A stretch of 64,000 nucleotides of DNA, taken from positions 79,976,878 to 80,040,877 of the forward strand of contig OZ020589.1 of NCBI GenBank assembly GCA_963971535.1, in the 5' to 3' direction. Positions 3,816-60,833 of the stretch are shown piece by piece (position 1 is the first letter of the stretch; every line of letters begins with the position of its first letter). Made by a program: the position numbers and the translations under genes. Source of the stretch: Notolepis coatsorum (taxonomy: Eukaryota > Chordata > Actinopteri > Aulopiformes > Paralepididae). The notes beneath the pieces were generated by a model, which saw only the letters and a list, made by a program, of their open reading frames with translations, searched no databases and was not told the origin of the DNA.

Positions 3816-10962
<7,147 letters not shown>

Positions 10963-13470: not shown

Positions 13471-13537
13471 ATGATGGTGGATGGTGGATGCTGTGATTTA
13501 TAAATATTATCTCTCCTCCTTTCTGAAGACTGTCATC

Positions 13538-14219
13538 ATGGACAAGATTTTGGAGGCCCTTGTCAGCTCCAACCACACTGTTCCGGTGAAGAAGGCCATT
13601 GTGAAGAAGGTCGTGGAGGCAGCGGAAAAAGAGGTGACGGAGGAACAGTGCCAGGCTCTGTATACTCTCACAGCCCGCCTCATTTTACTGAGTGAAGAAG
13701 CTTTTCAGAAACAGGTGGGCTTCCAGGTCCTGGAGGCTTACGCACGCTACCACCGCCCAGAGTTTGAGCATTTCTTCAGTAAAAACTTTGTGCTTGGGCT
13801 GCTGCAGCAAGGCTACGGACAGCTGGACCGCAAAGACCCAGCCATAGTGGACTACATTCATTGCTGCCTGCGGCTGCTCATCAGTTGCCCCTCTGTCCTG
13901 GAGATCTTCAGTGTCATCCAGGTGGAGGTGTTAAGGATGGTGTGTGAGCGGCCCGACCCGGCCCTGTGTGCCCGTCTCAGCACCATGCTCTCTGACTTTG
14001 TGCAGTGCATCCCCAGGGACAAGTTTGCTGTCCTGTTCTGTCAGCAGCTGGTGAGGACCATTAGCTACTTCCACTGTCCTGCCAGCCAGGAGCGACAGCT
14101 GAGGGAGTACGTGGGTCAGGTGACCAAGGCCAGCACGCTGCTGCAGAACATCTGGAAGGCTGAGCCGACCACCCTGCTTCCCTCACTGCAGGAGGTCTTC
14201 GCCATCATCTCCTCCACCG
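13538..14219 (+). CDS. usp38: USP38 coding exon 1 (residues 1-227)
   Basis: It starts MDKILEALVSS and contains QVLEAYARYHRPEFEHFF, VEVLRMVCERPDPALCARLS and LLQNIWKAEPTTLLPSLQEV, all close to human USP38. The donor is ACCG followed by GTGAGA, phase 1. A longer open frame begins 19 codons upstream, but those codons show no family similarity and lie before the probable splice acceptor at 13528. Confidence 0.96.
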
Positions 14220-17200
14220 GTGAGATGCCCTCTGGCTGGGAACAACACTTAAAGGATCATACCAGTGAGCACAGTTACAAAAATCTGCCAATCAAGGTGG
14301 CCTTATTTTTTCATATTCTTTTACTGTTACTAGGGGTGTAAAGGTACACGTATCCGTACCGAACCGTTTCAGTGTGTACCATACCGAGCGGCTGTGTAGT
14401 GTACCGAACGAATACAACGGTATGTTAACCACTAACGACTGCCCACCGAGGGCTGTTTTTTTCACAATCTTATTTTTATTTTTTATTTTTAACAAGTCTA
14501 TTATTAATTTCAATATAGAATATTCGTTGACAGCCCTACAAGTACAATTAGTTACTGCACACTACATCACCCCTGAGTGGAACATGGAAAGCCAAACTTT
14601 CCCCCACTGTACCGAAAACCCGTACCGAACCTTGACTTCAAAACCGAGGTACGTACCGTACCGTGGTTTTTGTGTACCGTTACACCCCTAACTGTTACTG
14701 TTTTGAACTTATTATGCCGATTCACCACTTCCATAGGCTTCCTGTATCTGCAAATGTGTCTGAATCACCACATCAACTGAAGAGTCAACAGTCCACATCT
14801 GACTAAAATGGAAATTAAATGCACCCCAGATGTTAGCATGGCATTTTAGTCAGATGTGGTGAATCTTTTTGTGGGTTTATGTGGTGTTTAATTTTATTTA
14901 TGTGGTGAATTGGCAGAAAACAACTACCACATTTTTCAGTAACAGTAAAAGAGTATGAAAAAAGAATGCCATCTGTATCAAGGCAAGAATGACTTGGAAA
15001 CCACATGTCAAAAATACTGGTAATGGTCCTTTAAACCAGCTCTAACTTTTTCATGAGAATAAATAGCTTCTTTAGCAATCTATATCACACAGTGGGTCTG
15101 AACAAGAGAAAACCCAACTGCGTTGTATAAAACACTGTACAAATGACTAGGGGTGGGAATCGCCAGAGACCTCACGATACGATAATATCGCGATACTTGC
15201 GTCACGATACGATAGTATCGCTATACTAAATATATGGCGATACGCTGCGTATTGCGGGAAATATTTTTATCTTATTTATTTTGATCAAATTACATTTATT
15301 ACCTTTTTTCAACTGCAAAGTAAAACTTTGTCAACATGTTTTATCTAATAAAATAAAGTTCAGTCTGTTCATCTCACTTCAATCATTTTTATTGCAGAAC
15401 ATGGTATTTTCAAGCAGACAGATGTAAACACTGTAATCTGTGTTGCATGTACCTGACAAAACTGAACTGTTTGTATTACAGTCATATATTACAGTCATAT
15501 TCCAACTTAACTGAATGCACATGTGTGTGTGTGTGGACTACTGTACTATTACAGGTATTGAAATGAACAATGCAACTTCCTTTTTTTTATTAATAATTAA
15601 ATATAGATACTTGGCGTCCCTGTATCGATACAGTATCGCCACGCAAAGTATCGCGATACTACTACGTATAGATTTCCCCCCCCCCATCCCTACAAATTAC
15701 CCATGTAAGCTCTTCGGATGCCACACAATCTGGAAAAGGCTAGTCTAATTTCTAGAGCATAAAATGTGAATGACATAATGTAAAACTGTGCCCAGTGGTG
15801 CAGTAGTTACCTCTCACAGCCACAGGGTGGGTGTCGATCTTCCATAATGAAGTTTTAAAGGAAGGCAAGTTAGGCAACATTGCTAAACAAAGTAGGTTAG
15901 CCTACATCTAGTTTAGTTTATTAGGGTTTCCATTAGTTAATGCCATGACATCAGCTAGTTTTCCTTGGGTCCGACACGGATACATTCAGAATCTCAATCT
16001 AATGTAATCATGCCTTAGGTCAGCGTTTCCCAAACCTTTTTGGCCATGCACTCCTGTCCCAGGGAACAAAATTAACTTTTTGGTTTACCAGCCAAGGTGG
16101 CTGGTAGATAAAAAAAAAAAGAAAAAAAAGACCAGCCAGGCAGATTTTTTACCAGCCAAAAATTAGAAATAGCTTTTTAGTATATCGCCATGTGTTATTA
16201 TTATTACTTACTATATACAGGGATCTACACTAACCTTTTCCGCAGGGAGCACATGTGCTCCTAAATAAAATAAAAATTAGGTGCACACAAAGAAATTTAG
16301 GAGCACAGTGAACATTTTTCAAGTAACAGAGTTTATTAACAAACTATTTATTACATGCATATTATACTGTGCGTGCGTGTGCATACTAAGGGTTAACATC
16401 TGTGCAATAGCACATATCACCAAAATCACACATTGGCCCATGCCTACTAGACACAAAGGATATCGGTTGTCAAGCTGCTTTTGTATGTTGTACTGTTGTC
16501 ACAATACCAACATTTTGACTTTGATACAGATAGGAAAGGTAATGGAATATATTATTAGATGACAGAACATCTTTATCTTTATACAATTATTTAATTCATT
16601 ATAATTTAAACGCTATTGAATAATAGTTACTCAATAGTAATTAATACAATTATTCTGTTACAGCTACTGAGCTATATACTATAGCTACTGTCCATCAATA
16701 TCTTCCTTTTGAATGAAATAGGTTCAGGAGAGAGATGGAGAGAGGGAGAGGGAGAGAGAGAGAGCGACACACACACACTCGCACACAGATAGACGGAGAG
16801 ACGGATTCTCAGCCCTCCCTTCCCTCACTATGCCTCCGAGCGTCCCCCGTGATTAGCGTTAGCAGCAGTAGTTAGCGTTAGCAGGTTAGCTTAGTTGGAG
16901 TACTCAGTTAGCAGATAACATTACAGTAGTTATTGTTTTTTAGCACAACGTGGGTATAACTGGCGAGGATGCAAAGCATGTTAGACAATTGGAACTGCTG
17001 CTCGCAGAGTTTTCGTTGCACATAGAAGCAGCGTGACTCGAGATGAGTTGTTACAGAGCTGATCCACGCTGCTCCGTGTCTATTATGAAATGACAATTGC
17101 GCAGTTGACACGCCCACTACGCAAGACTATTACTCGCACACTGTGCTCCTGAATGATTTTTCCGGTTCGCACAAATCTATTTTTAGAGGCCAATGCGAGT

Positions 17201-37600: not shown

Positions 37601-40600
37601 TTGACAGCCTTGGACATGCTATATACTTGCTTGAATGGCTTAAGAAGATTTTGTTATTTCTGCTGTAATGGGGAGCCAGGCATTGTTATCTGTACACATA
37701 AGATGCTGTCACAAAGCATATCGAACCTCTGTCAGTATTAGAATCCTATGTGTGTTTGATAATGATGTGGATTCAAATAAAGTATGTAAAGTAAGTGTAT
37801 CTTCTGCATCCTGCAGAGGGCAGCATATGCGCCTAGAAACTTCTTTGAAGTGTCTCGACCTCCATGGTTCAATGCAGGCTCCCAACAGGACTGTTCAGAG
37901 TACCTCCGCTTTCTTCTAGACAGGTACCACTCACATACACAAACACAACCTCTCTGCTGTTATTTTTCAGGGTATCTAGAATGACGATCCAAATCCAATG
38001 TTAGTTTATTGTTAATTAATTGATAATTAATTGTCATTAAATGTTCTTGAATGCTTTTATATTCAATGTAAAATGCTATTTAATCGACAAATGTATACAT
38101 TTGCTTTCCCAAAATGATTGTCCTTCTGCAAGTGAACAGAATCATGCAAAATGGACACCTTTTGATCCAATGTTTATCATGGGCTCTTACATATTATTTA
38201 TGATTGTGAATTTTGTTTCGATGCCTTTTAATGGACAAGAAAAAAAAAAGATTATACAACTAATTGAAAATAAATTTCTTAGTCAAGTATTGCAATAGTT
38301 TGGTTTGGGCCGGTATATTTTTTCTAAGCTATAGGTTTTAAAAGTGAAAATGTATTGTTGATGTTTTGAACATAGAACGTATGTAAGTAAAGTAGGAAAG
38401 CCACTCTAGTAATAGTAATGGATGATGTGGCCATGTTGTAAGGTGTAGGTGCTTTTTCCTCCTTGTTATAATAGTCTACCTGCCTCTTGTTCCCAAGGTT
38501 ACACGAAGAGGAGAGAACCCTCCAGGTCCTAGAATCAGCCAAGCCAAAGGTCATTGCCTCTGGTAATGCAGCAACCAGCAATGACCTGGGGGGTCAGCTC
38601 TCTACAGAGCAGGAGGAGGGGTCAGTGGAAACCAAGGCTGAGGGTGACAGGCCGACGCTGATAGAACGGATGTTTGGCGGCAGGCTGAGTACAGGTATCC
38701 GCTGTATGCAGTGCAACAGTGTCTCAGAGAAAGAGGAGCCCTTCACCGACCTCTCATTGGCCTTCTGTCCCTCCGCCACCTCCCAGGGGGGGCCTCAAAC
38801 CGAGGGCCCCTCTGAGGAGCCCAAGGGCCCCATCCAAGGAGCTGTCAATGGTGGCAGCGAGGCTCCTGAACAAGGACCCGTCAAAGCCTCCGCTAGCAGT
38901 GTCCAGTTTGTACCGGCGACAGACGGGCCCCCTCTCTCCGTACCTGACTTGGTCAACTATTTCCTGGCCCCAGAGATCCTGGATGAGGAGAATGCCTACT
39001 TCTGTGAAAAGTGTGGCTCGCTGCAGCGGGCGGAGAGGGGCATGAAGGTGGTGGCGGCTCCAGAATACCTGATCCTCACCCTGCTGCGCTTCTCTTACGA
39101 CACCAAATGCCACGTCCGCAGGAAGATCTTGGACAACGTCACCATCCCGCCACTCATGAGACTCCCCGTGCATACCCCTTCGCCGCCAGGAAACCCTTCC
39201 TCTTCCTCCTCCTCTCCTCTGCAAGTGGACTCTCCCGAGAGCAGCGAGAACTTGGCGAAGAAGCTCAAACCTTCGCAGAGGGACGAGGAGGAAGAGGAGG
39301 ATGAGCGGAGAACCGAGAGAGTAGAGCAGATACACAGAGAAGGAGGAATGAAAGTATACTCTGTGCCCTATGTCCTCAGCTCTCTGGTGATGCATTCTGG
39401 GATGTCGTCAGAGAGCGGCCACTACTACTCTTACGGTCGGAACATCAACGGGGCGGACGGTGCCCAGCACCTGGCCAGTCATCACTTCACCCTGGACGAG
39501 GAGTCGGGGGATGGTCAGGTGGACGCAAGCCTCTCCATTTGCTCCGCCCCCTCGACCCCACCCAAACTAGTGGAGGCGGTGCTTAGCAGTGGCCAGGAGG
39601 CTAAGGACTGGCTGCTCTTCAATGACAGCCGAGTGACATTCGCCTCCTTCCAGTCGGTGCAGAACATCACTAACCGCTTCCCCAAGGACACAGCCTACGT
39701 GCTCATCTACCGCAAACAGGAAGCAACCGGACAGAGTGTTAACGGAAGCATAGCAGCTAACGGGATGAGACTGGGCGCTGAGCCTCCGCTGCAGAAGGAG
39801 CTCCTGGATGCCATTACCAAGGACAACAAGCTGTACTTACAGGTGAGGCTTAGGACAACAAGCTATACTTACAGGTGAGGCTTAGGACAACAAGCTGTAC
39901 TTACAGGTGAGGCTTAGGACAACAAGCTATACTTACAGGTGAGGCTTAGGACAACAAGCTGTACTTACAGGTGAGGCTTAGGACAACAAGCTATACTTAC
40001 AGGTGAGGCTTAGGACAACAAGCTGTACTTACAGGTGAGGCTTAGGACAACAAGCTGTACTTACAGGTGAGGCTTAGGACAACAAGCTGTACTTACAGGT
40101 GAGGCTTAGGACAACAAGCTGTACTTACAGGTGAGGCTTAGGACAACAAGCTATACTTACAGGTGAGGCTTAGGACAACAAGCTGTACTTACAGGTGAAG
40201 CTTAGGACAACAAGCTATACTTACAGGTGAGGCTTAGGACAACAAGCTGTACTTATAGGTGAGGCTTAGGACAACAAGCTGTACTTACAGGTGAGGCTTA
40301 GGACAACAAGCTGTACTTACAGGTGAGGCTTAGGACAACAAGCTGTACTTACAGGTGAGGCTTAGGACAACAAGCTGTACTTACAGGTGAGGCTTAGGAC
40401 AACAAGCTGTACTTATAGGTGAGGCTTAGGACAACAAGCTGTACTTATAGGTGAGGCTTCTGAAAGAGTCCAGTACTGAAAAACACATTATGTAGACATA
40501 GCTGTTTACAATGTATTGCCATTCATATCAGAGAAATATCAACACAAATATTTGTCAGTATTGTACCGTATTAAATTTCGGGACAAATTTAGGCCTGTGT

Positions 40601-41802
40601 CAGTGCCTGTAAATATTGCCACTAAATGCAGGCCATGGGGGGGGGGGTTGATTAACATTTAGCAGTAAATATTAAAGCCGCTGCGGACGTACAGTAAGTG
40701 GTTAAATCTGGCATTTGGTCAAAGTGATTTGTTGAGAATACGTTTGACTGAAAGCTCTGACTACATAGCTTAATTATTACAGTTGTGTGTGTGGTCTCGT
40801 TGCATACAGTACGTGTTCACATATGCAGGCTTCTCAAAGCTGGAAAGTGACTCTGAGAGGGAGGGGGACCTTACACTCGAACAGATAAGGGAGAATCGTT
40901 GCTGTCTTACTAAATCGTAGCACAACTCTGAACTGTCCCCCTACTGGAAAGCAGGAGGTGTCATTTCATGACCCATTGGTCTGTGTAGTGTTGTCATTCC
41001 ACCAACACACTTGTGTGGAGGTACAGTGAACAGACCCTAGAGGGCGCCGTAGTACTCGCTGGTGATATCAAAGGCACCAATGTTGGTGCTGATATCCGGC
41101 TAAACTAGGGCATCTGTATTGAAGAATTTCCCCAATACTACAATATGATACCAAGAGCCACGTGTAACATGTTAGAAATCAAAGTAACTTACCATACTAA
41201 ACTAAATAAAACTAGCTTAAATCTATGTCCTGTACTGGTAGTGGTATGGTGATAAAACTAGCTTAAATCTATCTCATGTACTGGTATGGTGATAAAATGA
41301 CAGCCTCTTATCAAATAAATCGATACATACATTGGACCAGTGAGGCGCTATGGAAAGTTTTGCGTTTCTGAATGTAAACAAGGAAGTGCCCGTGCAGAGA
41401 GAGAGAGCAAATTAAATAAATAATTATCAAAATGGTGATGAAGAATTGACGAGGACAGAGGGCGCTTGTCTTGGTTCTGAAGGGAGTGGATGACAGAGGA
41501 GGAAGTGACACCCATTTTCAAAGGAAGGTTTCACGCCGCTATCATGTCCCACTCTGACGATTCCATGTCACTCTTCCTAGAGCATCTCTAACATGCCATG
41601 TAAACATCTATCTTCTTTCCCCTGTGTGTAATAACAGGAGCAGGAGCTGAACGCTCGCACACGCGCTCTCCAGGCTGCCTCGTCCTCCTGCTCCTTCAGG
41701 CCCAACGGTTCAGACGACAACGACCCGCCGGGCAGCTGCGGCCCCTCTGGAGGTGGGGGAGGCGGGGGAGGCTTCAACACCATCAGTAGACTGGTGTTCT
41801 GA
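13538..41802 (+). CDS. usp38: USP38 ubiquitin-specific protease, complete ten-exon coding region (1037 aa)
   Basis: USP38 is a cysteine protease that removes ubiquitin from proteins; in mammals it acts on targets such as TBK1, HDAC1 and LSD1. Coding exons are 13538-14219, 23945-24080, 29863-29992, 31171-31272, 34635-34793, 35202-35395, 36620-36713, 37817-37923, 38498-39842 and 41638-41802. They join in phase with GT/AG borders to 1037 residues; human USP38 has 1042 (from memory). The N-terminal 400 residues form the helical region special to USP38/USP35. The USP domain has the Cys box NLGNTCYMNS (Cys454), two CxxC pairs (604/607 and 704/707), the His box SGHYYSY (His843) and LFNDSRV (Asp911). 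The C-terminal GGGGGGGGFNTISRLVF tail is as in human USP38, which separates it from USP35. The first start in good context (ATCATGG) was chosen. Confidence 0.97.
14253..15030. mobile_element. TTAA-type MITE (Kolobok- or piggyBac-like) at the start of USP38 intron 1
   Basis: TTAA flanks both sides (14249-14252 and 15031-15034). The left end is AGGATCATACCAGTGAG and the inverted right end AGGACCATTACCAGTATTT. It begins only 33 bp after the exon 1 donor. A hAT MITE is nested in it. The sequence TCTGCCAAT recurs inverted in both halves, giving a fold-back shape. Confidence 0.7.
14331..14690. mobile_element. hAT-type MITE, 360 bp, nested
   Basis: The ends are TAGGGGTGTAAAGGTACACG and, inverted, TAGGGGTGTAACGGTACAC. 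They are flanked by the perfect 8-bp duplication ACTGTTAC (14323-14330 and 14691-14698). The same family recurs at 35731-36065. Confidence 0.9.
15148..15693. mobile_element. hAT-type MITE, 546 bp (TAGGGGTGGGAATCG family)
   Basis: It begins TAGGGGTGGGAATCGCC and ends CCCCATCCCTA. The flanks CAAATGAC and CAAATTAC differ at one base. The interior has paired CGATACGATA-type motifs. A close relative lies at 27322-27840. Confidence 0.85.
16060..17362. mobile_element. hAT-type MITE (CAGGGAACAAAATTAA family) with a nested 1-kb insertion
   Basis: The left end is CAGGGAACAAAATTAACTTT and the inverted right end CAGGGAACAAAATAAGCACC. The flanks share CCTGTC. The interior repeats ACCAGCCA motifs. Related copies lie at 18734-19599, and one of them serves as the empty site for the nested element. 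Confidence 0.75.
16218..17225. mobile_element. Nested DNA element, 1008 bp, with apparent 5-bp duplication ATATA
   Basis: The ends are CAGGGATCTACAC and, inverted, CAGGGCTATACAG. ATATA flanks both sides (16213-16217 and 17226-17230). The paralogous uninterrupted sequence ACTATATAATACTC at 18865-18878 shows the site before insertion. The interior contains GGAGCACATGTGCTCC and (GA)n. No transposase is seen. A 5-bp duplication fits a hAT5-type element better than classic 8-bp hAT. Confidence 0.65.
17533..17900. mobile_element. Tc1/mariner-type MITE, 368 bp
   Basis: The ends are TAGGTGCAGCTCAATAAATT and, inverted, CAGGTGCAGCTCGATAAATT, each continuing AGAATATCGTGGAAAAGT. TA flanks both sides (17531-17532 and 17901-17902). 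No transposase frame remains. Confidence 0.85.
17903..18725. other. USP38 intron 1 stretch without recognised element
   Basis: I see no gene, clear repeat or conserved signal here on either strand. Confidence 0.4.
18734..19599. mobile_element. hAT-type MITE (CAGGGAACAAAATTAA family), 866 bp
   Basis: The left end is CGGGGAACAAAATTAACTTT and the inverted right end CAGGGAACAAAATAAGTACC. The 8-bp duplications GGTACAAT are identical (18726-18733 and 19600-19607). A second, internal copy of the terminal motif (CAGGGAACAAACTTAAC) at about 19482 suggests a partial internal duplication or a second insertion of the same family. Confidence 0.85.
19660..20385 (-). mobile_element. Non-LTR retrotransposon, 3' end with (CAT)n tail
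   Basis: On the minus strand 20384-20115 reads KYNLRGLCILKTYKKVRTNV, then CVSILRVKLWNSLSDGLKLC, the C-terminal stretch of a fish LINE reverse-transcriptase protein. It is followed by a 3' region ending in a run of CAT units (19663-19690). It continues the protein left off at about 22454, so 20386-22440 looks like an insertion into one LINE copy. CR1/Rex1-like, from memory. Confidence 0.7.
20802..21538. mobile_element. DNA transposon MITE with GGGGCCTTTCTCACTCA ends
   Basis: The left end is GGGGCCTTTCTCACTCAGG and the inverted right end GGGGCCTTTCTCACTCACTC. The flanks are TTA and TTC, so a 3-bp target duplication (PIF/Harbinger style) is possible but not exact. It contains a 185-bp tandem duplication (about 21199-21424) and a G run at 21447-21466. 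Confidence 0.65.
21199..21424 (+). repeat. Partial tandem duplication with hAT-like CAGTGGTGCCCAACCAG end
   Basis: GAATGCATTTATTTCTATTA followed by GACCAGTGGTGCCCAACCAG occurs twice, 185 bp apart. CAGTGGTGCCCAACCAG with a GTCGACC motif resembles a hAT terminus. Confidence 0.7.
21718..22296 (-). mobile_element. Retroelement ORF fragment (ORF1/gag-like), fossil
   Basis: An open stretch of about 192 codons contains GIVAFVAGVGTGMAEAKGKT and MVKMIVRIAVQHLGLEGLD. These resemble a nucleic-acid-binding ORF that is widespread in fish retroelements. I cannot name the family with certainty. The N-terminal codons are the translated tandem repeat at 22209-22325. Treated as a broken remnant. Confidence 0.4.
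22209..22325 (+). repeat. Tandem repeat, about 51-bp unit, 2.3 copies
   Basis: GTTCTAGAATGTTT followed by TATGACATCATACTGTGACA and TCACAAAT repeats. Each unit carries TGACATCA half-sites. Confidence 0.85.
22441..23055 (-). mobile_element. Non-LTR retrotransposon, RT/thumb part (upstream portion of the same LINE)
   Basis: Minus-strand frames contain CEIKLNLNGTEIERVYETKF, LGVVIDHKLCWKPHIQYIKG, KLAKSVGILYKTRELLNQK and KLQKIAIKIINKASYLEST, the region downstream of the RT catalytic box in fish LINEs. There are at least two frame breaks. Confidence 0.75.
23304..23780 (+). mobile_element. tRNA-derived SINE (family A), full-length copy
   Basis: The head GGGTGGCGCAGCGGACTAAG and GGTATCGAATCC look like tRNA promoter boxes A and B. 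The body runs through CGACTCCTACAGGTCGGTC and ACCGACCAGTGGGGGGCAC to the tail ATTGGGATGGGAGAAAA and an A-rich end. Relatives in the window: 24483-25763, 26757-27215 (minus), 31950-32030 and 33722-33866. Confidence 0.85.
23945..24080 (+). CDS. usp38: USP38 coding exon 2 (residues 228-272)
   Basis: It encodes DPSFDPSIALASLVQHIPLQ and then MITVLIKSLTTD and NVKDASMTQALC. The acceptor is GTGGATTGCAG and the donor is AG followed by GTGCTG, phase 2. Confidence 0.95.
24483..25763 (+). mobile_element. SINE family A copy interrupted by a Harbinger-type element
   Basis: The head is GGGCGGCTACGTGGCGTAGT with GTTCGAGCCC as box B. The tail ATTGGGATGGGAGAAAA and poly-A reach 25763. The 10-bp duplications GTATTATTCA (24473-24482 and 25764-25773) bracket both halves, so it was one insertion later split at 24835-25628. 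Confidence 0.85.
24835..25628. mobile_element. PIF/Harbinger-like MITE, 794 bp, TTA target duplication
   Basis: The ends are AGGCCTCTGCATGCTACAG and, inverted, AGGCCTCTACATGCTACAG, followed by CAAAGCAACTTCAACACAAC on both sides. TTA flanks both ends (24832-24834 and 25629-25631). A 33-bp direct duplication (CTCGAGCTCCTGTCAGAAAG type) lies near 25338-25405. No transposase. Confidence 0.85.
25790..26125 (-). mobile_element. Penelope-like element fragment with GIY-YIG endonuclease
   Basis: Minus strand 26110-25901 reads MLKCPCGLAYIGKTTRPLKT, then AEHCSTFRNN and NPVAVDVLKEKRSLSYVRFE. LAYIGKTTR is the GIY-YIG core, and the CPCG and HCSTFRNN motifs are those of fish Neptune/Poseidon-type Penelope elements. 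No reverse transcriptase part is left. It is about 70 codons of a domain near 100. Confidence 0.75.
26757..27215 (-). mobile_element. SINE family A copy, antisense, with about 20-bp target duplication
   Basis: On the minus strand it has the GGCGTAGCGGAGATTGCGCTC-type head near 27207-27170, the CGACGCCTACAGGTC body and the ATTGGGATGGGGAGAAAAG tail at 26810-26790. TTTTTTGTATACTGTATTTT occurs on both sides (about 26736-26756 and 27217-27236). Confidence 0.85.
27322..27840. mobile_element. hAT-type MITE, 519 bp (TAGGGGTGGGAATCG family)
   Basis: It begins TAGGGGTGGGAATCGCC and ends CCCCCACCCCTA. The perfect 8-bp duplication is ATGTCGCA (27314-27321 and 27841-27848). It is similar throughout to 15148-15693. 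Confidence 0.9.
27996..28946. mobile_element. piggyBac-like MITE, 951 bp (CCCTTTC family)
   Basis: TTAA flanks both sides (27992-27995 and 28947-28950). The left end is CCCTTTCTCTGCCACGC and the inverted right end CCCTTTCGCCGCCGATG. It shares most of its length with 32271-33590, including CAGGGCTATAACTTTTTAAA and a G run. No transposase. Confidence 0.8.
29096..29475 (+). repeat. Minisatellite, 24-bp unit, about 15 copies
   Basis: The unit is close to ACCATTAGTTTGGTGCAGAC plus CTAG. The length is a multiple of three, so one frame stays open as an eight-residue repeat (RPLVWCRP). It lies in USP38 intron 2 and has no splice or start context, so I do not call it coding. Confidence 0.95.
29711..29862 (+). 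repeat. Tandem array of exon 3 acceptor-like units upstream of USP38 exon 3
   Basis: CCTCTGTCC..CTCCAG followed by GATGAT appears with junctions at 29727, 29773 and 29817 before the real acceptor (exon start 29863), at spacings of 46, 44 and 46 bp. Every unit has a pyrimidine tract and CAG. Use of any of the upstream junctions would bring an in-frame stop before the real exon. Confidence 0.9.
29863..29992 (+). CDS. usp38: USP38 coding exon 3 (residues 273-316)
   Basis: It encodes MIDWLSWPLAHHVDTWVIAL, LKGLAAVQKFTILIDVTLLK and IEL. The acceptor is CCCCTCTAG. The donor is GTTTGT, a weaker site than the others. Near-copies of the acceptor lie just upstream. Confidence 0.95.
30033..30162 (-). 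mobile_element. Retroelement 3' end remnants, antisense
   Basis: Four CAAGTT units (30037-30060) are followed by CTTTAATAGTTGTCATACAG, and then TTTATTTGTATAGCACTTTT near 30137, which looks like an inverted LINE 3' end. A relative of the first part is at about 33968. Confidence 0.4.
30168..30505 (-). mobile_element. TTAA-type element fragment, antisense copy
   Basis: It is the reverse of the family at 5029-5893 and 43171-44677 (for example CCAATTCCTGATCGCCATTCC, CTTACCTCAGATCAGATGTT). Both ends are lost. Confidence 0.65.
31171..31272 (+). CDS. usp38: USP38 coding exon 4 (residues 317-350)
   Basis: It encodes VLNRLWYPIVRQGALVVLSH, MLLSFQHSPEAFHL. The acceptor is TTAATTCCAG and the donor is GTAATG, both phase 0. 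Confidence 0.95.
31616..31940. mobile_element. TTAA-flanked fold-back element with a nested retroelement tail
   Basis: TTAA lies at 31612-31615 and 31941-31944. The left end CCCTTTCACTACCACACTAC and the inverted right end CCATTTCACTACCACACTAC match closely. Inside are further inverted copies of GTAGTGT.GCAGTGAAAGGG. About 31704-31857 is the GGGGGACCCTGATG retroelement tail ending in (TCAA)n. Confidence 0.7.
31950..32030 (+). mobile_element. SINE family A head fragment ending in a G run
   Basis: GGTGGCCGGGTGGCGCAGCG begins the SINE head. It stops after ACAGTGGGAGG in a run of about 26 G (32003-32028), which is followed by TA-rich sequence. Confidence 0.65.
32271..33590. mobile_element. piggyBac-like MITE (CCCTTTC/CACATTC family) with nested TA-type MITE
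   Basis: TTAA flanks both sides (32267-32270 and 33591-33594). The left end is CACATTCCCTGCCACGC and the inverted right end CACATCCTGCGCCAAAAAC. The body matches 27996-28946. It is 1320 bp long, of which 369 bp is the nested element. Confidence 0.8.
32826..33194. mobile_element. TA-type MITE (CCGTACTTTTCG ends), copy A, nested
   Basis: The left end CTGTACTTTTCGCACTATAA and the inverted right end CCGTACTTTTCGGACTATAA run on into GCCGC. TA flanks both sides. Internal CTATAAGCCGCA motifs are repeated. It is nearly identical to 43757-44127. Confidence 0.9.
33722..33866 (+). mobile_element. SINE family A tail fragment
   Basis: It contains CGACCAGGTAGGGGATTGGG, AATTGGCATAACGACTAA and ATTGGGATGGGAGAAAA with an A-rich end. 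The head is missing; it may be the partner of the 31950-32030 head, separated by the 32271-33590 insertion and other sequence. Confidence 0.65.
33870..34634. other. USP38 intron 4 end, no recognised element
   Basis: A minus-strand open stretch of 142 codons (34236-34664) overlaps the splice acceptor and has no recognisable family, so I treat it as chance. A short retroelement-tail remnant lies near 33968-34030. Confidence 0.4.
34635..34793 (+). CDS. usp38: USP38 coding exon 5 (residues 351-403)
   Basis: It encodes VVPHVVHLVHSLRTDG, then FLLHFTELIHCMMYQYSGFP and DLYDNILEAIK. The acceptor is GTGTCCCAG and the donor is GTAAAA, both phase 0. Confidence 0.95.
35202..35395 (+). CDS. usp38: USP38 coding exon 6 (catalytic Cys box, residues 404-467)
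   Basis: It encodes DLPKPSEDKIKLVLNQSAWT followed by TGLVNLGNTCYMNSIIQTLF. Cys454 is the nucleophile and sits at the same number as in human USP38. The acceptor is TTATTTGCCAG and the donor is GTGAGT, phase 2. Confidence 0.97.
35731..36065. mobile_element. hAT-type MITE (TAGGGGTGTAAAGG family), second copy
   Basis: It begins TTGGGGTGTAAAGGTACACG and ends CCGTTACACCCCTA. It is similar over most of its length to 14331-14690. The flanks ACTACTAT and CTAGCTAT match only partly. It lies in USP38 intron 6. Confidence 0.75.
36620..36713 (+). CDS. usp38: USP38 coding exon 7 (residues 468-499)
   Basis: It encodes DFRRHVLSLHLNGANTMMKK and then LQLLFAFLAHTQ. The acceptor is CCTCTCACAG and the donor is GTCTGT, phase 0. 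Confidence 0.93.
36881..37530. mobile_element. hAT-type element remnant in USP38 intron 7
   Basis: The left end CAGGGCTTCTCTTTCAG and the inverted right end CAGTGGTTCTCAAACTGTGG, both soon followed by GGCGC, are hAT-like. The flanking 8-mers do not match well. It contains a run of about 19 C near 37460-37478. Confidence 0.55.
37817..37923 (+). CDS. usp38: USP38 coding exon 8 (residues 500-534)
   Basis: It encodes RAAYAPRNFFEVSRPPWFNA and then GSQQDCSEYLRFLLD. The QQDCSEYL motif is the conserved USP QQD box. The acceptor is ATCCTGCAG and the donor is GTACCA, phase 2. Confidence 0.95.
38498..39842 (+). CDS. usp38: USP38 coding exon 9 (bulk of the USP domain, residues 535-983)
   Basis: This 1345-bp exon holds both CxxC pairs (CMQC and CEKC), YLILTLLRFSYD, SSENLAKKLKPS, VLSSLVMHSGMSSESGHYYS (His843) and WLLFNDSRVTFASFQSVQ (Asp911). 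The insert between residues about 625 and 675 is poorly conserved and proline/serine-rich, as in other USP38 proteins. The donor TTACAG followed by GTGAGG is the first unit of a tandem array. Confidence 0.96.
39819..40459 (+). repeat. Minisatellite of the USP38 exon 9 / intron 9 junction, 32-bp unit, 19 steps
   Basis: Each unit contains the last 23 bases of exon 9 (AGGACAACAAGCTGTACTTA plus CAG) and the first nine of the intron (GTGAGGCTT). Unit starts run from 39843 to 40451 at exact 32-bp spacing, giving 20 donor-like sites. Variants are TGTACT or TATACT, TTACAG or TTATAG, and one GTGAAG. Confidence 0.97.
40460..41637. other. Rest of USP38 intron 9
   Basis: I see only low-grade duplications, for example ATAAAACTAGCTTAAATCTA twice near 41208-41272, and no recognisable element or gene. 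Confidence 0.4.
41638..41802 (+). CDS. usp38: USP38 coding exon 10 (C-terminal tail, residues 984-1037)
   Basis: It encodes EQELNARTRALQAASSSCSF, RPNGSDDNDPPGSCGPSG, a run of eight glycines and FNTISRLVF followed by TGA. It is nearly identical to the remembered human C-terminus. The acceptor is GTAATAACAG, phase 0. Confidence 0.95.
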   Translation, partial: EQELNARTRALQAASSSCSFRPNGSDDNDPPGSCGPSGGGGGGGGFNTISRLVF

Positions 41803-46670: not shown

Positions 46671-46689
46671 ATGCCCCCCCCTGGTGCCC

Positions 46690-47730
46690 CCACAGTCGAA
46701 AAACACGCGCTTAAGTGCCCTTTTGAGTGAAAGAAATTAGAGGATGTGCCCTATTGGTGCCCCCACGGTTAAAAAATGCTCGCTAAAGTGCCCTTTTGAG
46801 TGAAAGAAATTAGAGGATGTGCCCTATTGGTGCCCCCACGGTTGGAAAACGCGCGCTTAAGTGCCCTTTTGAGTGAAAAAAATTGGAGGATGTGCCCTAT
46901 TGGTGCCCCCACGGTTGAAAAATGCGCGCTAAAGTGCCCTTTTGAGTGAAAGAAATTAGAGGATGTGCCCTATTGGTGCCCCCACGGTTGGAAAACGCGT
47001 GCTTACGTGCCCTTTTGAGTGAAAGAAATTAGAGGATGTGCCCTATTGGTGCCCCCACGGTTGGAAAACACACGCTTAAGTGCCCTTTTGAGTGAAAGAA
47101 ATTAGAGGATGTGCCCTATTGGTGCCCCCACGGTTGAAAAATGCACGCTAAAGTGCCCTTTTGAGTGAAAGAAATGAGAGGATGTGCCCTATTGGTGCCC
47201 CCACGGTTGAAAAACGCGCGCTTAAGTGCCCTTTTGAGTGATAAGAAATTAGAGGATGTGCCCTATTGGTGCCCCCACGGTTGAAAAACGCGCGCTAAAG
47301 TGCCCTTTTGAGTGAAAGAAATTAGAGGATGTGCCCTATTGGTGCCCCCACGGTTGAAAAACGCACGCTTAAGTGCCCTTTTGAGTGAAAGAAATTAGAG
47401 GATGTGCCTTATTGGTGCCCCCACGGTTGAAAAATGTGCGCTAAAGTGCCCTTTTGAGTGGCGAAAAATTAGAAGGTGTGCCCTATTGGTGCTCTTCCAA
47501 TGGTCTAAACTTGACCATGTGCCCCACGGTTAAATAATATCACGCAAAAGTGCCCTTTTGAGTGAAAGAAATTAGAGGACGTGCCCTATTGGTGCCCCTC
47601 TAATGGTTAAACGTGACCATGTGCCCCCACAGTTGAAAACATCACGCTAAAATTTCCTTTTTGAGTGTTGAAAATGAGAGGACGTGCCCATTGGTGCCCT
47701 TCCAATGGTCTAAACTTGACCATGTGCCCC
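46690..47730 (+). repeat. Minisatellite, 73-bp unit, about 13 copies
   Basis: The unit runs through GTGCCCTATTGGTGCCCCCA, CGGTTGAAAAACGCGCGCTA, AAGTGCCCTTTTGAGTGAAA and GAAATTAGAGGAT. The last copies diverge and carry CCAATGGTCTAAACTTGACC. The array runs into the transposase reading frame. Confidence 0.95.
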
Positions 47731-49618
47731 ACGGCATGGTAAGATGGAGCAACTTCAAACAGAGACCACTGGAAGAGGCTTTCAGGAGGGCAGACGTAGA
47801 AGGCCAAGCCAAAAGAGAACAGGAACGACAAAGAAACAGGGAGCTAATGACAAGACTGGTAGACATCACATTGTATCTTGCACGGCAAGATGGGGCGTTC
47901 AGGGGTCATGATGAAAGTGGTACATCTTTGAACAAAGGGAATTTCCTTGAACTTGTACAGCAAAATATGACTCCACCATCAAAATGCACCTTGATAAAAT
48001 CAATCACATCCAGTCTCAACAGAAAAAAACACAGATATCACTGTTGTCCTACAAGACACAGAATGACATAATCAGTGCCCTTGCCACCTATGTCAGAAGA
48101 GTAATTCTCAAAGAAATGGAAGATTTCAAAATATTCTCCATTCTCTTGGATGAGACAACTGATGTTTCTCATGTCGAACAAGTGTCCTTTGTTGTTCGCT
48201 TTGTCCATCAGATGGAAATCAAGGAGAGATTTTTACAAGTTTGTGATGTGAGTGGAACAACAGCAAACGAATTGGAGAATGTTGTGATGACATTCCTTGA
48301 GGAGAATGGATTAAAAGTGGAAGACATCAGGGGCCAAGGCTACGATGGAGCCACAAATATGAGCGGAAGCTACAACGGTCTGCAGTCGCGAATTCAGAGC
48401 CACACTGAGAAAGCTTTATACGTGCACTGCCATGCCCACTGTCTCAACCTGGTCTTGGTGGAGAGTGCCAAATCAAGCCAGCATTTTGTTCGGTTTTTCA
48501 ATTTAGTTGAAAATCTGTACACTTTCATATCCAGATCTCCACGCCACGCTGCATTTGTGAAAATGCAACAGACCATGTACCCTGGCCAAAGACTCTGTGA
48601 ACTGAAAAGCCTGTCTGACACACGGTGGGCGTGTAGAGAAGATGCTCTGAGATCCCTGAAGAAGGTCCTTTCTGCTGTGGTGAAGCTGCTTCAGAACATG
48701 GCTGATAGTGATCCACCAGACTCTGCAGCAGGTGATGCCTGGATGCTCTTGCGTAGCATAGATTTTGAATGTATGCTATGCATGGAGATTGCCACACCTG
48801 TCTTCAATGAGACTGCCATCGCATCTGCTTCACTTCAGAGAAAAGACCTTGACTTGTCAGCATCATACACCATTGTGGAGGGAGTCATACAAAGAGTGAA
48901 AGCAATGAGGAAGGATGAAGAGTTCAAGGTCCTTTTCTCAAAAGCAAAAGGGCAAGCAGAGGCAGCAGGCATTGAGGTGCCAGAAGAAATACCTGGACAA
49001 ACAAGACGCAGGAAGGTACCTCAAAGGTACAGGTATAGCTCTCAATCTGCTACAGAGGACTACCAAGTCCAAGACTTGGAGGAGCACTACCGGGGAAAGG
49101 TGTTCTTTACCTTTCTTGACATACTCTCCCATGAGCTACACCGAAGATTCAAAGGCAAGGATGACACGCCTACTGGGTCAATCCTATCAGGTCTTCACTG
49201 CCTTACCATCTCAAGTCACTGGAAGGGCATGACAAACGACACAGCTGCTGTATCTGTCAGAGATGTGTGCCAGTTTTATGATGTAGAGGAAGAGAATGTT
49301 GTCACCGAACTCAAGGTATTCCACTCTTCATATGCTCTCCCCTCCAACAATGTCAAAGCTGCACTTAAAGTGCCTTAAAGACAATGATGTGGAATGCTCC
49401 TCAAAACATATGCTACAATACCAGTGACAACTGCTTCAGTAGAGCGATCATTCTCTGAGTCTAAACTGAAGCTGATCAAAACCCAGCTCAGAAACCGATG
49501 TGGAGGGAAAAGGCTCTCTGATCTTATGCTGCTTTCAATTGAGAGGGATATCCCAATTGATCATAATGAGGTCATTAACATATATAAACAGAGGACCAAA
49601 AGACGAATTCTGCTATGA
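47720..49618 (+). pseudogene. hAT transposase (ZMYM/TTF type), degenerate
   Basis: Three successive frames give one protein. The first reads NFKQRPLEEAFRRADVEGQA, the second ILLDETTDVSHVEQVSFVVR, then GQGYDGATNMSGSYNGLQSR, YVHCHAHCLNLVLVESAKSS and LSDTRWACREDALRSLK. The third reads IPVTTASVERSFSESKLKLI, the hAT dimerisation region. Frames change near 47980 and near 49370-49395, so two frameshifts are needed. The N-terminal zinc finger is missing; the first in-frame ATG (47661) lies in the minisatellite. The DETTD aspartate and the CHAHC motif are kept. It is dead as it stands. Confidence 0.85.
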
Positions 49619-54381: not shown

Positions 54382-54590
54382 GGGGTGCTCCAGTAGCACA
54401 CCATGTTACCGCGCTGCGTCGCGGGACTCCGTGCTGCGTCACGGATCTGGTTGACTCCGAGTTCGATTCCCGGACTCGCCGTCATTTGCCGAATGTCTCC
54501 CCCTGCTCTCTCTCCCGTTTCACCCTACAACTGTCGGTCATGCTTGACCAGAAAAGCGATAAACGCTAAAAAATAAAGTAAAAAAAAAAA
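54382..54590 (+). mobile_element. SINE (family C, tRNA-derived) inserted before LINE ORF2
   Basis: It begins GGGGTGCTCCAGTAGC and has GAGTTCGATTCCCGGACTCG as box B, TGTCGGTCATGCTTGACCAG in the tail and a poly-A end. The 15-bp duplications AAAAATGATGTCGTT (54367-54381 and 54591-54605) include the ORF2 start codon. A second copy is at 60512-60741. Confidence 0.9.
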
Positions 54591-55832
54591 AAAAATGATG
54601 TCGTTAAACGTTAATGGAATGAATAATGCGATAAAGAGGGGCAAAGTGATGTTGAAATGTAAAAAAAGTGAGATGGAAGTGATTTTTCTGCAGGAGACAC
54701 ATTTGGTAGCACAGGATCATGAGAAACTGAAGAGATTTGGATATGAAAATGCATACTATAGTTCCTTTAAACGGAACCCGAGGAGAGGAGTAATCACGTT
54801 AATCAAAAACACAGTCAAATTTGAATTGATCAAGGAAGTAAGAGACAAGGAGGGAAGGTTTGTTCTGGTGAAGGGGAAAATGGAGGACCAAATGGTTACG
54901 TTAGTGAATGTTTATGCACCCCCAGAGAGTGAGAGGGATTTATATGAGACCATTTTTTATATGATAGTGATGGAACTAGAAGGGATATTGATATGCGCGG
55001 GAGATTTTAATGTAGTACTGAATCACGACCTAGACACCACGAGTACTAGAAAAGGACGGGCACCAATCAGTAGATATATGAATATTCAGATGATGGAAAT
55101 GGGAATTACAGATGTTTGGAGGGGGATGCACGCCATGGACAGGGAATACACACATTACTCACACCCGCACGTGACATATGCGAGAATAGACTACTTTTTG
55201 ATGACGACGGGGGACAGTTACAGGGCACGGGAGAGCAGAATAGGAGTAGCGGACATATCGGATCACAGTGCCATATATCTGACAGTAGATCTAGAAGGGA
55301 GACGAAGGAACACGATCTGGAGACTAAATGTAGGAATATTAAATAACAAGGGGGTGGTGAGTCAGATCAAGGAGGAGATAGCCAGATATAAGGAAGAAAA
55401 TGACAACGGGGCGGTAGATCCGAACATTCTATGGGACACACTGAAGGTGGTGATAAGGGGGAAATTGATGGAGAAGACAGCAATGCTGAAGAAGGCCAGA
55501 ACGGAGACATATCACAATCTGATAGGGAAGCTGAAGAAGCTAGAGGGGAGACACCAGATATAAAAAAAACAGGAAACGCTCGGAGAAATCAAAGAAGTAA
55601 AGGCCAGGATAAATAGGGAATTATTGACGGAAATAGAAAAGAAAGCGAGGTTCATGAAACAAACGTACTATGAAGGGGGACCAAAAGCGACCAGACTGTT
55701 GGCTAGGAGAATTAGGACGCAACAGAAGTTGAACACGATACACACAATAAGGGATACAAAGACTAATGAAATATTGAGGGACCCAGCTGAAATAGAGAGG
55801 ACATTTAGAGAATACTATGAGAAACTATACAC

Positions 55833-56919
55833 TCCACATGGCTTTTTTACATACAGTTACGCCTATGTTTGAAGTCTCACGGTGTTCCATTACACATACC
55901 AGTTGAACACCACAGTACCACAAATTTTTCTATGAAAGAGAAACATTGGGAGGTTTTGTATCAGGTTTTTATTATCAATTACTAACGTCCTCGTATGAAA
56001 CCCTTCAACTAGACACTGTCTGGAGGAGGGATATTCCAGACCTGGAAAGTGACTTTGATTGGCAAGAAGCATGGGCAAATGTCCGTCTTACATCAAGGAA
56101 CCCGGACCATCAACAAATCAATCTTAACTATATTCACAGGACATACTTGACTCCTATAAGACTGAACAGAATGGGCCTGAAACAGGACTCAAAATGCTCT
56201 CAAATTGAGACGAAGGGTTATTTATGCACATGTATTGGGACTGCCCACCAGTTAAGGCATTCTGGAAAGATGTGACCCATCAATTATCAAAACTCGTATC
56301 TTGGAATATACCAGTACACCCCTCTGTATTGCTTTTAAATGATGTTTTTGAGTTTGCAGTAAATCCACAGCTAAAGAGATTGGTCTTATCGGGTATCACA
56401 GTAGCTAAAAAACTGATCGCATCACGCTGGTTTCAACCGGAAAAAATGTGCCGGAAAGTTTGGTCTCTTACATATCTCGATGTGATATATCAAGAAATAT
56501 CTACAGCAAGAATTCTGGGTCTCAACGAATCCAAAATGTCAATGTGGGTAGAAGTGGTGGAGAGAATAAAAGCTAGCTTATAATGGTAGTGTCTGGTTAG
56601 GAGTGAGGGATAATGGAGGTACTATCCAAGGAGGGGTCCGGGAGGGGGGGGTTCGAGCTGGAGCATATGTGTGTAGGGTTTTAGAAAATAGGTATTAGGG
56701 GTATGTCCTATATAAGCATTTGTATAATTGTTAATTTCGCTGGATATACACTGTATACGGTTAAAATATTATTATAGACTTTTTTTTTGTCTTGTTTCTG
56801 TACTTGCATGTAATTTTAACCACCTTGACTGTTAGTTTCATTATGCATTATGTGTTGAGTACTGACTTTTAATAATTTTTTGTTTTGCAATAATAAAAAA
56901 AATATAAAAAAAAAAAAAT
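55833..56919 (+). mobile_element. 5'-truncated L1/Tx1-like LINE inserted in ORF2
   Basis: Its coding part reads WRRDIPDLESDFDWQEAWAN, HRTYLTPIRLNRMGLKQDSK, then MYWDCPPVKAFWKDVTHQL, the ORF2 C-terminus with its Cys/His region, with frame breaks. It ends in an A-rich tail. The 13-bp duplications AGAAACTATACAC are at 55820-55832 and 56920-56932. It belongs to a different subfamily from its host. Confidence 0.88.
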
Positions 56920-59020
56920 AGAAACTATACACACAGCCAAAAGCAGCGGGAGAAGAGGAAATAGAAGCATATCTGGAGAAGCTAGAGTTACCATGGATAG
57001 GGAAAGAACAGAATGAAGAATTAAATAAAATAATTACGGAACGAGAACTGGAAGAGGCAATTAGTAGAGCTAAAAACAACAAGTCTCCGGGGAGTGACGG
57101 ATTCCCATCGGAATTCTACAAGACATTTAGAACTGAATTAGCACCCATGTTAGGGGCGGCGTTCAGACACACGATGGAAGAGGGAAAAATGCCCCCCCCC
57201 TCGTGGAAGGAAGCCATAATCACCACGATACCGAAGGAAGGGAAGGATAGGGAATTATGTAGTAGTTTCAGACCTGTGTCCATACTCAACGTGGATTACA
57301 AGATGTATACATCGATAATATCAAAGAGATTTGAGACGTTTATGCCAGACATTATAGATGAAGATCAAACTGGATTTATTAAAGGGAGACAGACACAGGA
57401 CAACGTGAGAAAGACATTACACATAGTAGAGGAGATACAAAAACAAGGGGGTAGCGCGGTACTGATTAGCCTAGATGCAGAAAAAGCATTCGACAGTGTG
57501 AGCTGGACATTTTTATATAAAACATTGATGAGGTTCGGACTGAACGGGAGGGCGATGAAGAAGATCAAGGCGCTATATCAAGAACCGACAGTGAGGGTTA
57601 AGGTGAATGGCAGCTTGACGGATAGAATCAGATTAGAGAGGGCTACCAGACAGGGATGTTGTCTCTCACCGACGCTCTTCGCCGTTTTCATAGAACCTCT
57701 GGCACAACTGATCAGACAGACCGAGGACATTAAGGGAGTAAGGATAAAGGGAACGGAATATAAACTAGGCCTATTTGCAGACGACGTGATAGTATACATG
57801 AGGCAACCAGACAAGAGCTTCCCGGCACTGATGGATCTACTGAAGGAATATGGCCACTACTCAGGATACAATCTAAACGTGACAAAGACACAGACCTTAG
57901 CATGGAACTATACCCCAACGACGGAAATTAGGGAACAGTACGGGATAAGATGGGACATGGACAAGATTAAATACTTAGGGGTGAACATCACGAGAGGGGT
58001 GGAGAAACTGTTTGAGGCGAACTATACACAGATAAATCAGAACATCAAGAGAGACTTAGAGAGATGGACAGTAATGCCCTTGGACTTCAATTCAAGAATA
58101 GAGGTCATTAAAATGAACATACTATCAAGGTTACTGTACCTATTCCAGTCACTACCGATACAAATACCACAGAATCAATTCAGGGAGTGGGACAGACTGA
58201 TATCGAGGTTCATATGGGCGGGGAGAAGACCACTGGTCAGATATAAAACACTACAACTACCAAAGGAAGAGGGAGGGATAGCAGTACCCAGCCTACAAGA
58301 TTATTATTATGCAGCACAACTGAGAGCAGTGACGTGCTGGTGTAACGACAGATATGAGGCAAGATGGAAAGACATTGAAAAAGAAGGGGAGGGATACAAG
58401 ATACAAGCTCTGGTGGGAGATAGGGAACTATTCAAAGAAAAGGAGGGACTGTTAGATCCAATCACCAAATGCACCTTGACCATATGGAACAGAGTAGTAA
58501 AAACACACAAATTGGAGAAACAGACAGGGGTTCTGAGATGGGTAGCACATGACAAGAGATACAAACCAGGGAGGTTAGACCATGGATTCAGAAGGTGGGA
58601 GAGGGGGGGGGGGGGGGCAACAGCGATATGCAAAATGATAGAGAAGGGGGAAATGCAGACACTACAAAAATAAAAGGAGAAATTTGGACTAGAAAACAGG
58701 GACCACTTCAGATATCTACAGGTTAGAGACTACTACAACAAAGAAATAAGGGGGGCCAAAGACGAAGAACAGAATGGAATAATAAAGATGATAATATGGG
58801 CATACGAAGGGGGGCAAGGAAGAGTAATAATATCAGCAATATACCGGGCTATAATGAACAGCAAGGGACACACGACCGATTACATAAGGGAGAAATGGGA
58901 GAGAGAGCTAGAGATAGAAATAACAGGGAAGGAATGGGGGAACATATGCGAGGTGCAACATTCAACAACAGGATCGAGGATATGGAAAGAGTTTGGATGG
59001 AAAAACATAATCAGATTCTT

Positions 59021-59046
59021 TTTTTTTTTTTGTATTTTATTTAAAA

Positions 59047-59087
<41 letters not shown>
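59021..59087 (+). repeat. 67-bp T-run/(TA)n insertion with 14-bp target duplication
   Basis: TTTTTTTTTTTTGTATTTTA, an A run and a (TA)n run are bracketed by ATAATCAGATTCTT (59007-59020 and 59088-59101). Insert plus duplication add 81 bp, so the ORF2 frame stays open across it. Confidence 0.85.
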
Positions 59088-59092
<5 letters not shown>

Positions 59093-60164
59093 CAGATTCT
59101 TTATAACCCCAGAGCTGAAGGGAAAATATGCACCAACACAAATAGCATGCTGGAGGATGTGTGGGAAGGAGGGGGCAAATCACACGCACATATTCTGGGG
59201 ATGTCAGAAGCTGAAGGGGTATTGGGAGGAGATAGGGGAGGCAATGATCAGAATATTAGGACACGGATTGCCACAAACGGGACTGGTGCTGTACTTAGGA
59301 GACCTGACACACGAGGGAATACAGGGGGGGGACAAATATTTAATAAAGATAATGTTGATATCGGCCAGAAAAGCAATAACGAGACTGTGGTACAAGGAAG
59401 ACCCACCGACAATAGCACAATGGGTAGGAATAGTAGAGGAGATACAGGATATGGAGAGGATAACGCACATGCTGAGGCTACAGGAAGAGAGATTTGGGGA
59501 AAGATGGGGAAAGTGGGAGGATTATAAAGGGAACGAAAACGACATCACAGGAAGAACCAAATGCAACACAAGAAGGCGAAGGGTAAAGGAGGAAAGAAGT
59601 TCAAGGAGGGTCTCTGAACCCATGTCACACACTTTTGCTTTAGTTAGTATTTTATAATTTTTTTTTTTTTTTGGGGTATTACAATTGTTTTATGTTTTTG
59701 TACTTTACTATTTATGTCTGTTTAACAGTGTTATATTAATATTCAGGGATGATGTGGTTTGTGTATGGGTGAATCAAAAGGCAAAGAGAAAGTTAATAAA
59801 AAAAAATAAAAAAATAAAAAAGGACGAAGGACGAAGGATAAGGGAAGAAAGAAGCTCAAGGAGGGTCTCTGGACCCATATCACACATGCATGCCTTAGTC
59901 AGTATTTAATATTTTTGAGTAGGAATTACATTTTTATACCTGTTTAAGGGAGGTACACAATCAGCCTTTGTATTAAGTACCTGGAAAACAACTGTAGTGG
60001 AACCAGACAACTAACCATGATACCCATGTAACCATTTATGTGCACTGTTTTTTTAATTTTTTTATTGTGTTGTTAGTTTCCTTTTTCTTTTTTCTGTAAG
60101 TGCTGTTTGTCTAAAAGTGTTAATACAAATTTAAGTTAAAAAAAAAAAAAAACAGGGACAGGTA

Positions 60165-60741: not shown

Positions 60742-60833
60742 AAAGGAAGCTGTAAACAGCAGTTAGCTGCTAGCTTCGCCATATAGTCCATATAGTCCAT
60801 TCAGATACTTGGCGCGACCCCGAGTCAGTCGCC

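Follow-up and report, generated by a model that had tools for sequence, protein, structure and literature searches.

The window analysed here, a stretch of 64,000 nucleotides from Notolepis coatsorum, is part of contig C13 and carries on its forward strand a gene that is USP38/USP35-like, as judged by its N-terminal and UCH domains. The coding piece of exon 1 (13535..14290) encodes a Usp38-like N-terminal domain (Pfam PF21246, E 2.3e-79), which supports the gene name. The penultimate coding exon, exon 9 (38498..39842, with its acceptor ...TTCCCAAG|G placed by eye), bears much of the UCH domain, and an SGHYYSYGR box was recognised in it by eye. An open reading frame at 38475-39878 spans this exon, and residues 52-412 of the 456-residue piece 38475-39842 matched Pfam UCH (PF00443, E 1.3e-20). 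The nearest solved structure in the PDB was that of USP35 (E 2.6e-50), with other USPs also matching. Exon 9 is matched in full at only one place in the genome, and three further matches are distant (E 8.7e-5 or worse); no orthologue of it was found in the genome-contig and viral-contig collections, which hold few or no vertebrate genomes. Intron 9 (39843..41637) measures 1795 nt from its first donor. The coding part of exon 10 (41638..41802), the open reading frame of which is intact, comprises 54 codons (EQELNARTRALQ...FNTISRLVF) and a stop, and gave nothing meaningful when compared with the PDB. We take the gene to be USP38 rather than USP35 on account of the C-terminal tail that exon 10 encodes.

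The end of exon 9 forms the first unit of a 32-bp minisatellite on the same strand (39820..40459), called by TRF with a period of 32, 20.0 copies, 97% matches and a score of 1217. Each unit consists of the last 23 bases of exon 9 (39820..39842 in unit 1) followed by the 9 bases that open intron 9, which bears out the composition proposed for the array in an earlier, sequence-only reading. Unit 1 is the genuine coding exon end with the authentic donor, CAG|GTGAGG, the first intronic base of which is 39843; the other 19 units are intronic, and a donor-like GT recurs at 39843 + 32k (k = 0-19). Only 3 of the 32 columns vary: column 14 (G/A, with A in 5 of the 20 units), column 21 (C/T, giving TTATAG in units 14, 19 and 20) and column 28 (G/A, giving GTGAAG in unit 12). 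The GT is intact in all 20 units, as is the AG|GT junction with its two splice signals, and TTACAG and GTGAGG are both intact in 16/20, in agreement with the earlier remark that almost every unit keeps the former followed by the latter. Stops interrupt all six frames of the array, and its longest open stretch is 18 codons.

The array is confined to a single locus. When the unit pattern was searched for in the whole 3.42-Gb genome with up to 3 mismatches, it was found at 20 places, all of them in the USP38 array, and its reversed control at none. Two weak matches to the array obtained in a DNA search on contig C30 were discarded, as they sit in a different, unrelated AACAAGCTGTAT repeat. That repeat (L004 3115-6003), from which the weak match originates, is very long, with about 209 copies of a 15-bp unit. 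The array is known from one assembly, and might in principle have been created by it; however, the irregular pattern of unit variants, the embedding of the array in a 182-Mb contig and the presence of comparable arrays at other genes make an assembly artefact hardly credible.

To score the junctions as donors, we used human donor base frequencies. Sixteen units scored 7.23, the value of the authentic donor, three scored 5.65 and one 3.70. Outside the array, every site between about 38600 and 41640 fell short of the authentic donor by two bits or more. The predicted pairing with the 5' end of U1 was -11.6 kcal/mol for 16 units, -10.0 for 3 and -8.4 for 1. The 9-mer donor is identical in 16/20 units, which counts against an assured use of the first one.

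Such a unit is not typical of the minisatellites of this genome. Minisatellites abound in it: eight 10-kb genome samples contained 12 arrays, covering 9.2% of their length, and the window contained 5, covering 4.0%. Among these 17 arrays a strong donor was present in the unit only at USP38 (7.23, the next best being 4.05), and a donor-bearing unit is thus no common accident. Other large minisatellites of the window, at 46682-47492 (73 bp x 11) and 10222-10691 (20 bp x 23.5), lack strong donor motifs.

The consequences of the use of each donor were modelled from the sequence by joining donors 1-20 to exon 10. With donor 1, the 54-residue tail is encoded. Use of donor 2 would shift the frame, yielding VRLRTTSYTYRSRS, and the stop would end 13 nt into exon 10. 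With donor 3, VRLRTTSYTYR would be appended and the stop would lie 28 nt ahead of the last junction, and donors 4-20 would append the same residues with the stop 60-572 nt before that junction. The earlier claim of VRLRTTSYTYR and a stop after every later donor is therefore right for donors 3-20 and wrong for donor 2. Nonsense-mediated decay (NMD) is elicited when a stop lies 50-55 nt or more before the last junction. By this rule, and provided that no further exon follows exon 10, donors 4-20 (17 of the 19 later donors) are expected to produce NMD targets, not to be sources of truncated protein, and donors 2 and 3 would give stable mRNAs for truncated protein. Truncation would spare the UCH match, which extends no further than residue 412 of the 456.

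Two ways in which the later donors could matter to the gene may be considered. That every unit is predicted to pair strongly with U1, together with the positions of the stops reached from the later donors, would fit a mildly harmful leak, in which donors 2-20 would be used at a low, length-dependent rate, generating NMD substrates and lowering the amount of USP38 mRNA in an unregulated manner. However, the existence of arrays at several genes and at both copies of an ATP1A pair, described below, argues for a small cost, and we consider such a leak unlikely. In the other, the array would be a splicing rheostat: the number of donors would set the proportion of full-length to truncated (VRLRTTSYTYR-tailed) or degraded USP38, and allele length would alter the output. 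The 20 donor-like sites, 16 of them scoring as the authentic donor with the human base frequencies, would suit such a device, as would the sparing of the UCH match on truncation. Moreover, in TERT an intronic VNTR with a 38-bp unit is known to act as a splicing switch (PMC11830802), and truncation through donor choice is known in DOK7 (PMC5585400). The likeness of VNTR6-1 in TERT intron 6 to the USP38 array lies in its being an intronic minisatellite; it is about 3.5 kb from the exon, contains G-quadruplexes and acts on exon skipping, and the accessible part of that report mentions no copied donor (PMC11830802). Against the rheostat stand the NMD predicted for 17/19 later donors and the occurrence of like arrays at the Na,K-ATPase alpha and AMPK gamma-1 genes, where leakage would cost much. 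In addition, two of the three variable columns fall inside the 9-nt donor, showing no sign of constraint, though three columns give this comparison no power. We regard the rheostat as very doubtful.

Another possibility is that the array is spliced within itself. Each CAG|GTGAGG could be dual-specific, serving both as an acceptor and as a regenerated donor, and the array could be removed stepwise or in part within the intron, leaving no trace in mature mRNA. The AG|GT in all 20 units would permit this, and there are precedents: in humans, introns with tandem repeats show an enrichment of dual-specific AGGT sites, and UBC makes use of such sites (PMC10809524); in fission yeast there are introns across 24-bp AGGT repeats, and an AG|GT-bearing repeat unit can provide both donor and acceptor (PMC4974935). 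In UBC and VCX3A, as at USP38, AGGT is present in each tandem-repeat unit (PMC10809524), but the UBC repeats are coding, whereas those of USP38 are stopped in all six frames. However, the acceptor context is weak, with a pyrimidine content of 45% before the CAG of each unit versus 70% before exon 10, and nested splicing of this kind seems to us improbable. A different matter is the origin of intron 9 itself. Introns reportedly arise from tandem arrays or by AGGT duplication, as Rogers (1989), Zhuo (2007) and Hellsten (2011) are said to have proposed. In contrast to such introns, the USP38 array lies inside an existing intron and implies no new one; a gain of intron 9 from an AGGT tandem array was rejected, as the intron ends at 41637, far beyond the array.

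The fold of the array was more stable than that of 20 dinucleotide shuffles (z -4.0). A special RNA fold was nevertheless rejected: among 40 arrays with shuffled units and kept donors, 8/40 were at most as accessible and 15/40 at least as stable. Nor is donor 1 more open than the others, its mean unpaired value being 0.23 versus 0.14-0.28. The repeat seam makes UUAGGA upstream of donors 2-20 (UUAGG at -25, 19/19); it is absent before donor 1, and no UUAGGA-type site was found within exon 9. Among alternative seams, 12/1357 would make UAGG, which is a documented hnRNP A1 motif (PMC5503513, PMC4932749). As a general account, hnRNP A1 marking was dismissed, since no UAGG was seen in the units of the other arrays; moreover, each seam site also just follows a donor, where A1 can repress that donor. 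Marking of donors 2-20 by hnRNP A1 is kept as an idea specific to the USP38 locus. Intronic AATAAA motifs are present downstream of the array at 41205, 41314 and 41415, and one may imagine the array serving U1 telescripting ahead of them.

Arrays of the same architecture were found at the exon ends of other genes. We inspected the exon-side flanks of all 10 clusters of the donor word CAGGTRAG listed in 0-13.39 Mb of C1. Five of the 10 start exactly at an exon end with a plausible acceptor before it, the first unit being the exon end plus the donor; three of these exon ends were identified by homology search, one by near-identity to one of the three and one by its open reading frame and acceptor. 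The genes are AMPK gamma-1 (L023; PDB 7jhg, E 4.2e-10), a Na,K-ATPase alpha gene at about 3.761 Mb (L024/L030; PDB 2zxe, E 3.7e-17), its paralog at about 3.687 Mb (L029; 127/130 bases identical, some 74 kb away) and an Arfaptin/ICA1-like gene (L027; Pfam PF06456, E 8.7e-14), for which we presume the name ICA1; the fifth exon (L028), recognised by its reading frame and acceptor only, had no homologue in Pfam or in a further homology search. The AMPK gamma exon likewise had no match in Pfam, and the Na,K-ATPase exon had just a weak and unrelated one there, to DUF1634 (E 0.013). Compared with the PDB, the Arfaptin exon found only weak, unrelated structures (E 0.087 or worse). No recognisable exon end was seen by eye at the remaining five clusters (L021, L022, L025, L026 and L031); at L031 a GA-rich repeat continues upstream, and the start of the array was not clearly reached.

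In four of these arrays for which it was computed, a retained intron would stop translation 12, 14, 27 and 36 nt past donor 1; in the Arfaptin-like gene, as at USP38, this stop lies just beyond donor 2 (32 nt). Each of the two ATP1A paralogs has a 42-bp donor array, one holding 10 donors and the other 28 when intact NAGGTRAG alone is counted, from which it appears that the number of units changes while the exon and first donor persist. This pair thus points, indirectly, to lability of array length. As like arrays are found at Na,K-ATPase alpha and its paralog, at AMPK gamma-1 and at the Arfaptin/ICA1-like gene, a rheostat or truncation source specific to USP38 is not needed to explain the array there.

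For comparison, we took flanks of clusters of other words, 6 of the 14 listed for CAGATRAG and 4 of the 8 listed for AAGGTRAG, one of the latter reading N. None of the nine readable flanks (6 CAGATRAG, 3 AAGGTRAG) had an exon end, as judged by eye alone, whereas the donor-word flanks also had homology searches. One CAGATRAG flank (L039) held a 69-codon open frame.

The excess of donor words in arrays extends to the whole genome, in which we searched for triplets of a word spaced by gaps N{10,40}; the counts are lower bounds. CAGGTRAG triplets occurred at at least 32,059 places and those of the reversed word at at least 4,262. The corresponding numbers were at least 2,339 for CAGGCRAG and 1,373 for its reverse, and at least 5,602 for CAGATRAG and 9,191 for its reverse. 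Donor-word triplets are thus 3.5 to 23 times commoner than those of the five broken or reversed words, the factor of only 3.5 being that over the most frequent control, the reverse of CAGATRAG with its 9,191 places. As single words, in 141.5 kb sampled, CAGGTRAG (7), its reverse (6), CAGGCRAG (9) and CAGATRAG (5) were about equally frequent. A longer donor word, CTACAGGTGAG, occurred three times in succession at at least 721 places versus at least 3 for its reverse. AAGGTRAG triplets (at least 19,210 versus at least 3,424 reversed) were set aside as a replicate, being confounded by simple repeats, which made up most of the places listed, and having no exon-like flank among the 3 readable ones.

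The acceptor word TTTNCAGG was found in triplets at at least 4,180 places and reversed at at least 4,056, without an excess. This acceptor word is expected to cover fewer of the true sites than the donor word does, and the difference between the two kinds of site is suggestive only. In the first 13.39 Mb of C1, the clusters listed numbered 10 for the donor word, with two neighbouring, unit-sharing stretches at 8.68 Mb taken as one, 0 for CAGGCRAG, 1 for CAGATRAG and 2 for the acceptor word. Given a mean of 1 cluster, at least 10 would be seen with a probability of 1.1e-7, and given a mean of 2, with one of 4.6e-5. Since 5/10 of the sampled clusters are not at a recognised exon end, some of the excess of donor words may be due to something else. 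Two further repeats were encountered in these searches: a large cluster of TTTACAGG-bearing 21-bp repeats at C1 60.544-60.575 Mb, found through the acceptor word, and a donor-word array with units of about 50 bp at C6:54067556-54068898, in which one unit has a coding-like stretch before CTACAG.

The closest known relatives of these arrays are the mirages of amphioxus, minisatellite-like tandem duplications of the exon-intron border found in Adh3 and in the globin genes BflGb6 and BflGb9 (PMC3087553). In Adh3 the units measure 10-72 bp. Many mirage units carry AG/GT, and the arrays are unstable in length in both germline and soma; the mRNAs detected by RT-PCR were regular, and regular splicing was reported to be undisturbed (PMC3087553). 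The USP38 array shows the same traits, namely a unit spanning the border, the authentic border on the exon side, AG/GT in the units and occurrence at several genes. The two systems differ in that both borders are affected in amphioxus, whereas here the donor word is in excess and the one acceptor word is not, and in that here many loci are affected at once in a vertebrate-like genome of 3.42 Gb. In human genes of segmental duplications, De Grassi and Ciccarelli (2009) described variable minisatellites averaging 30 bp, some of them at exon-intron borders and altering splicing (PMC2812944). Those repeats average 4 copies, belong to recent paralogs and have transcript support; the 20 copies at USP38 adjoin a single-copy exon and are known from genome sequence alone. 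A literature search, with most subscription journals outside its reach, found in the accessible texts no description of a genome-wide class of donor minisatellites in a vertebrate.

Taken together, these results are best accounted for by a mirage minisatellite, in which the border of exon 9 was duplicated and amplified into the intron, donor 1 is mainly used, and the array is an instance of a recurrent phenomenon, not an adaptation of USP38; we give this reading a probability of roughly 0.75. Among the three roles suggested earlier from the sequence, that of harmless redundant donors fits best, and a rheostat specific to USP38 found no support. A tandem duplication of a segment straddling the border of exon 9 and intron 9 would have seeded the array, and slippage or unequal exchange would then have extended it into the intron. 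Splicing would take place mainly at the first, exon-adjacent donor, with the other 19 being silent or nearly silent intronic copies; their occasional use would lead to the donor 2 frameshift, to the donor 3 stop shortly before the last junction or, from donors 4-20, to NMD substrates. In-register gain or loss of units would spare the exon end and its donor, which equal growth inside the exon would not, and the array is probably tolerated because any in-register number of units leaves both intact.

The control words support a genome-wide donor preference, with the exon ends themselves identified at USP38 and among the ten clusters of one chromosome. The broader proposal, that splice donors are preferred birthplaces of minisatellites, with thousands of donor-seeded arrays, more than a thousand of which would be at genuine exon ends, and acceptors unaffected, has in our judgement even odds; the figures are rough, having been extrapolated by hand from the 10 clusters in a 13.4-Mb stretch of a single chromosome. 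The arrays might be seeded by a mutational process linked to donors; alternatively, selection might spare only growth begun at a donor, as the exon-adjacent donor would always win.

The point of interest is this recurrence at donors rather than a switch in USP38. How the spliceosome chooses among several identical donors is an old question, and this genome offers natural experiments on it, with 3 to 28 near-identical tandem donors at conserved genes, including two paralogs that differ in number. When two donors compete in DOK7, the one nearer the intron can be chosen under the influence of SRSF1-type factors (PMC5585400). As the first donor need not be favoured, the genome constitutes a test of the exon-adjacent-donor rule. 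Should minisatellites also be born with special frequency at donors, splicing signals would be linked both to the mutation of repeats and to models in which introns are gained by AGGT duplication.

Beyond the coding part of exon 10, the window holds a 475-codon open frame that looks transposase-derived by eye (47951-49378), and long open frames with LINE-like endonuclease and reverse transcriptase features, also recognised by eye, at 54577-59657, with a second such block at 60774-62810.
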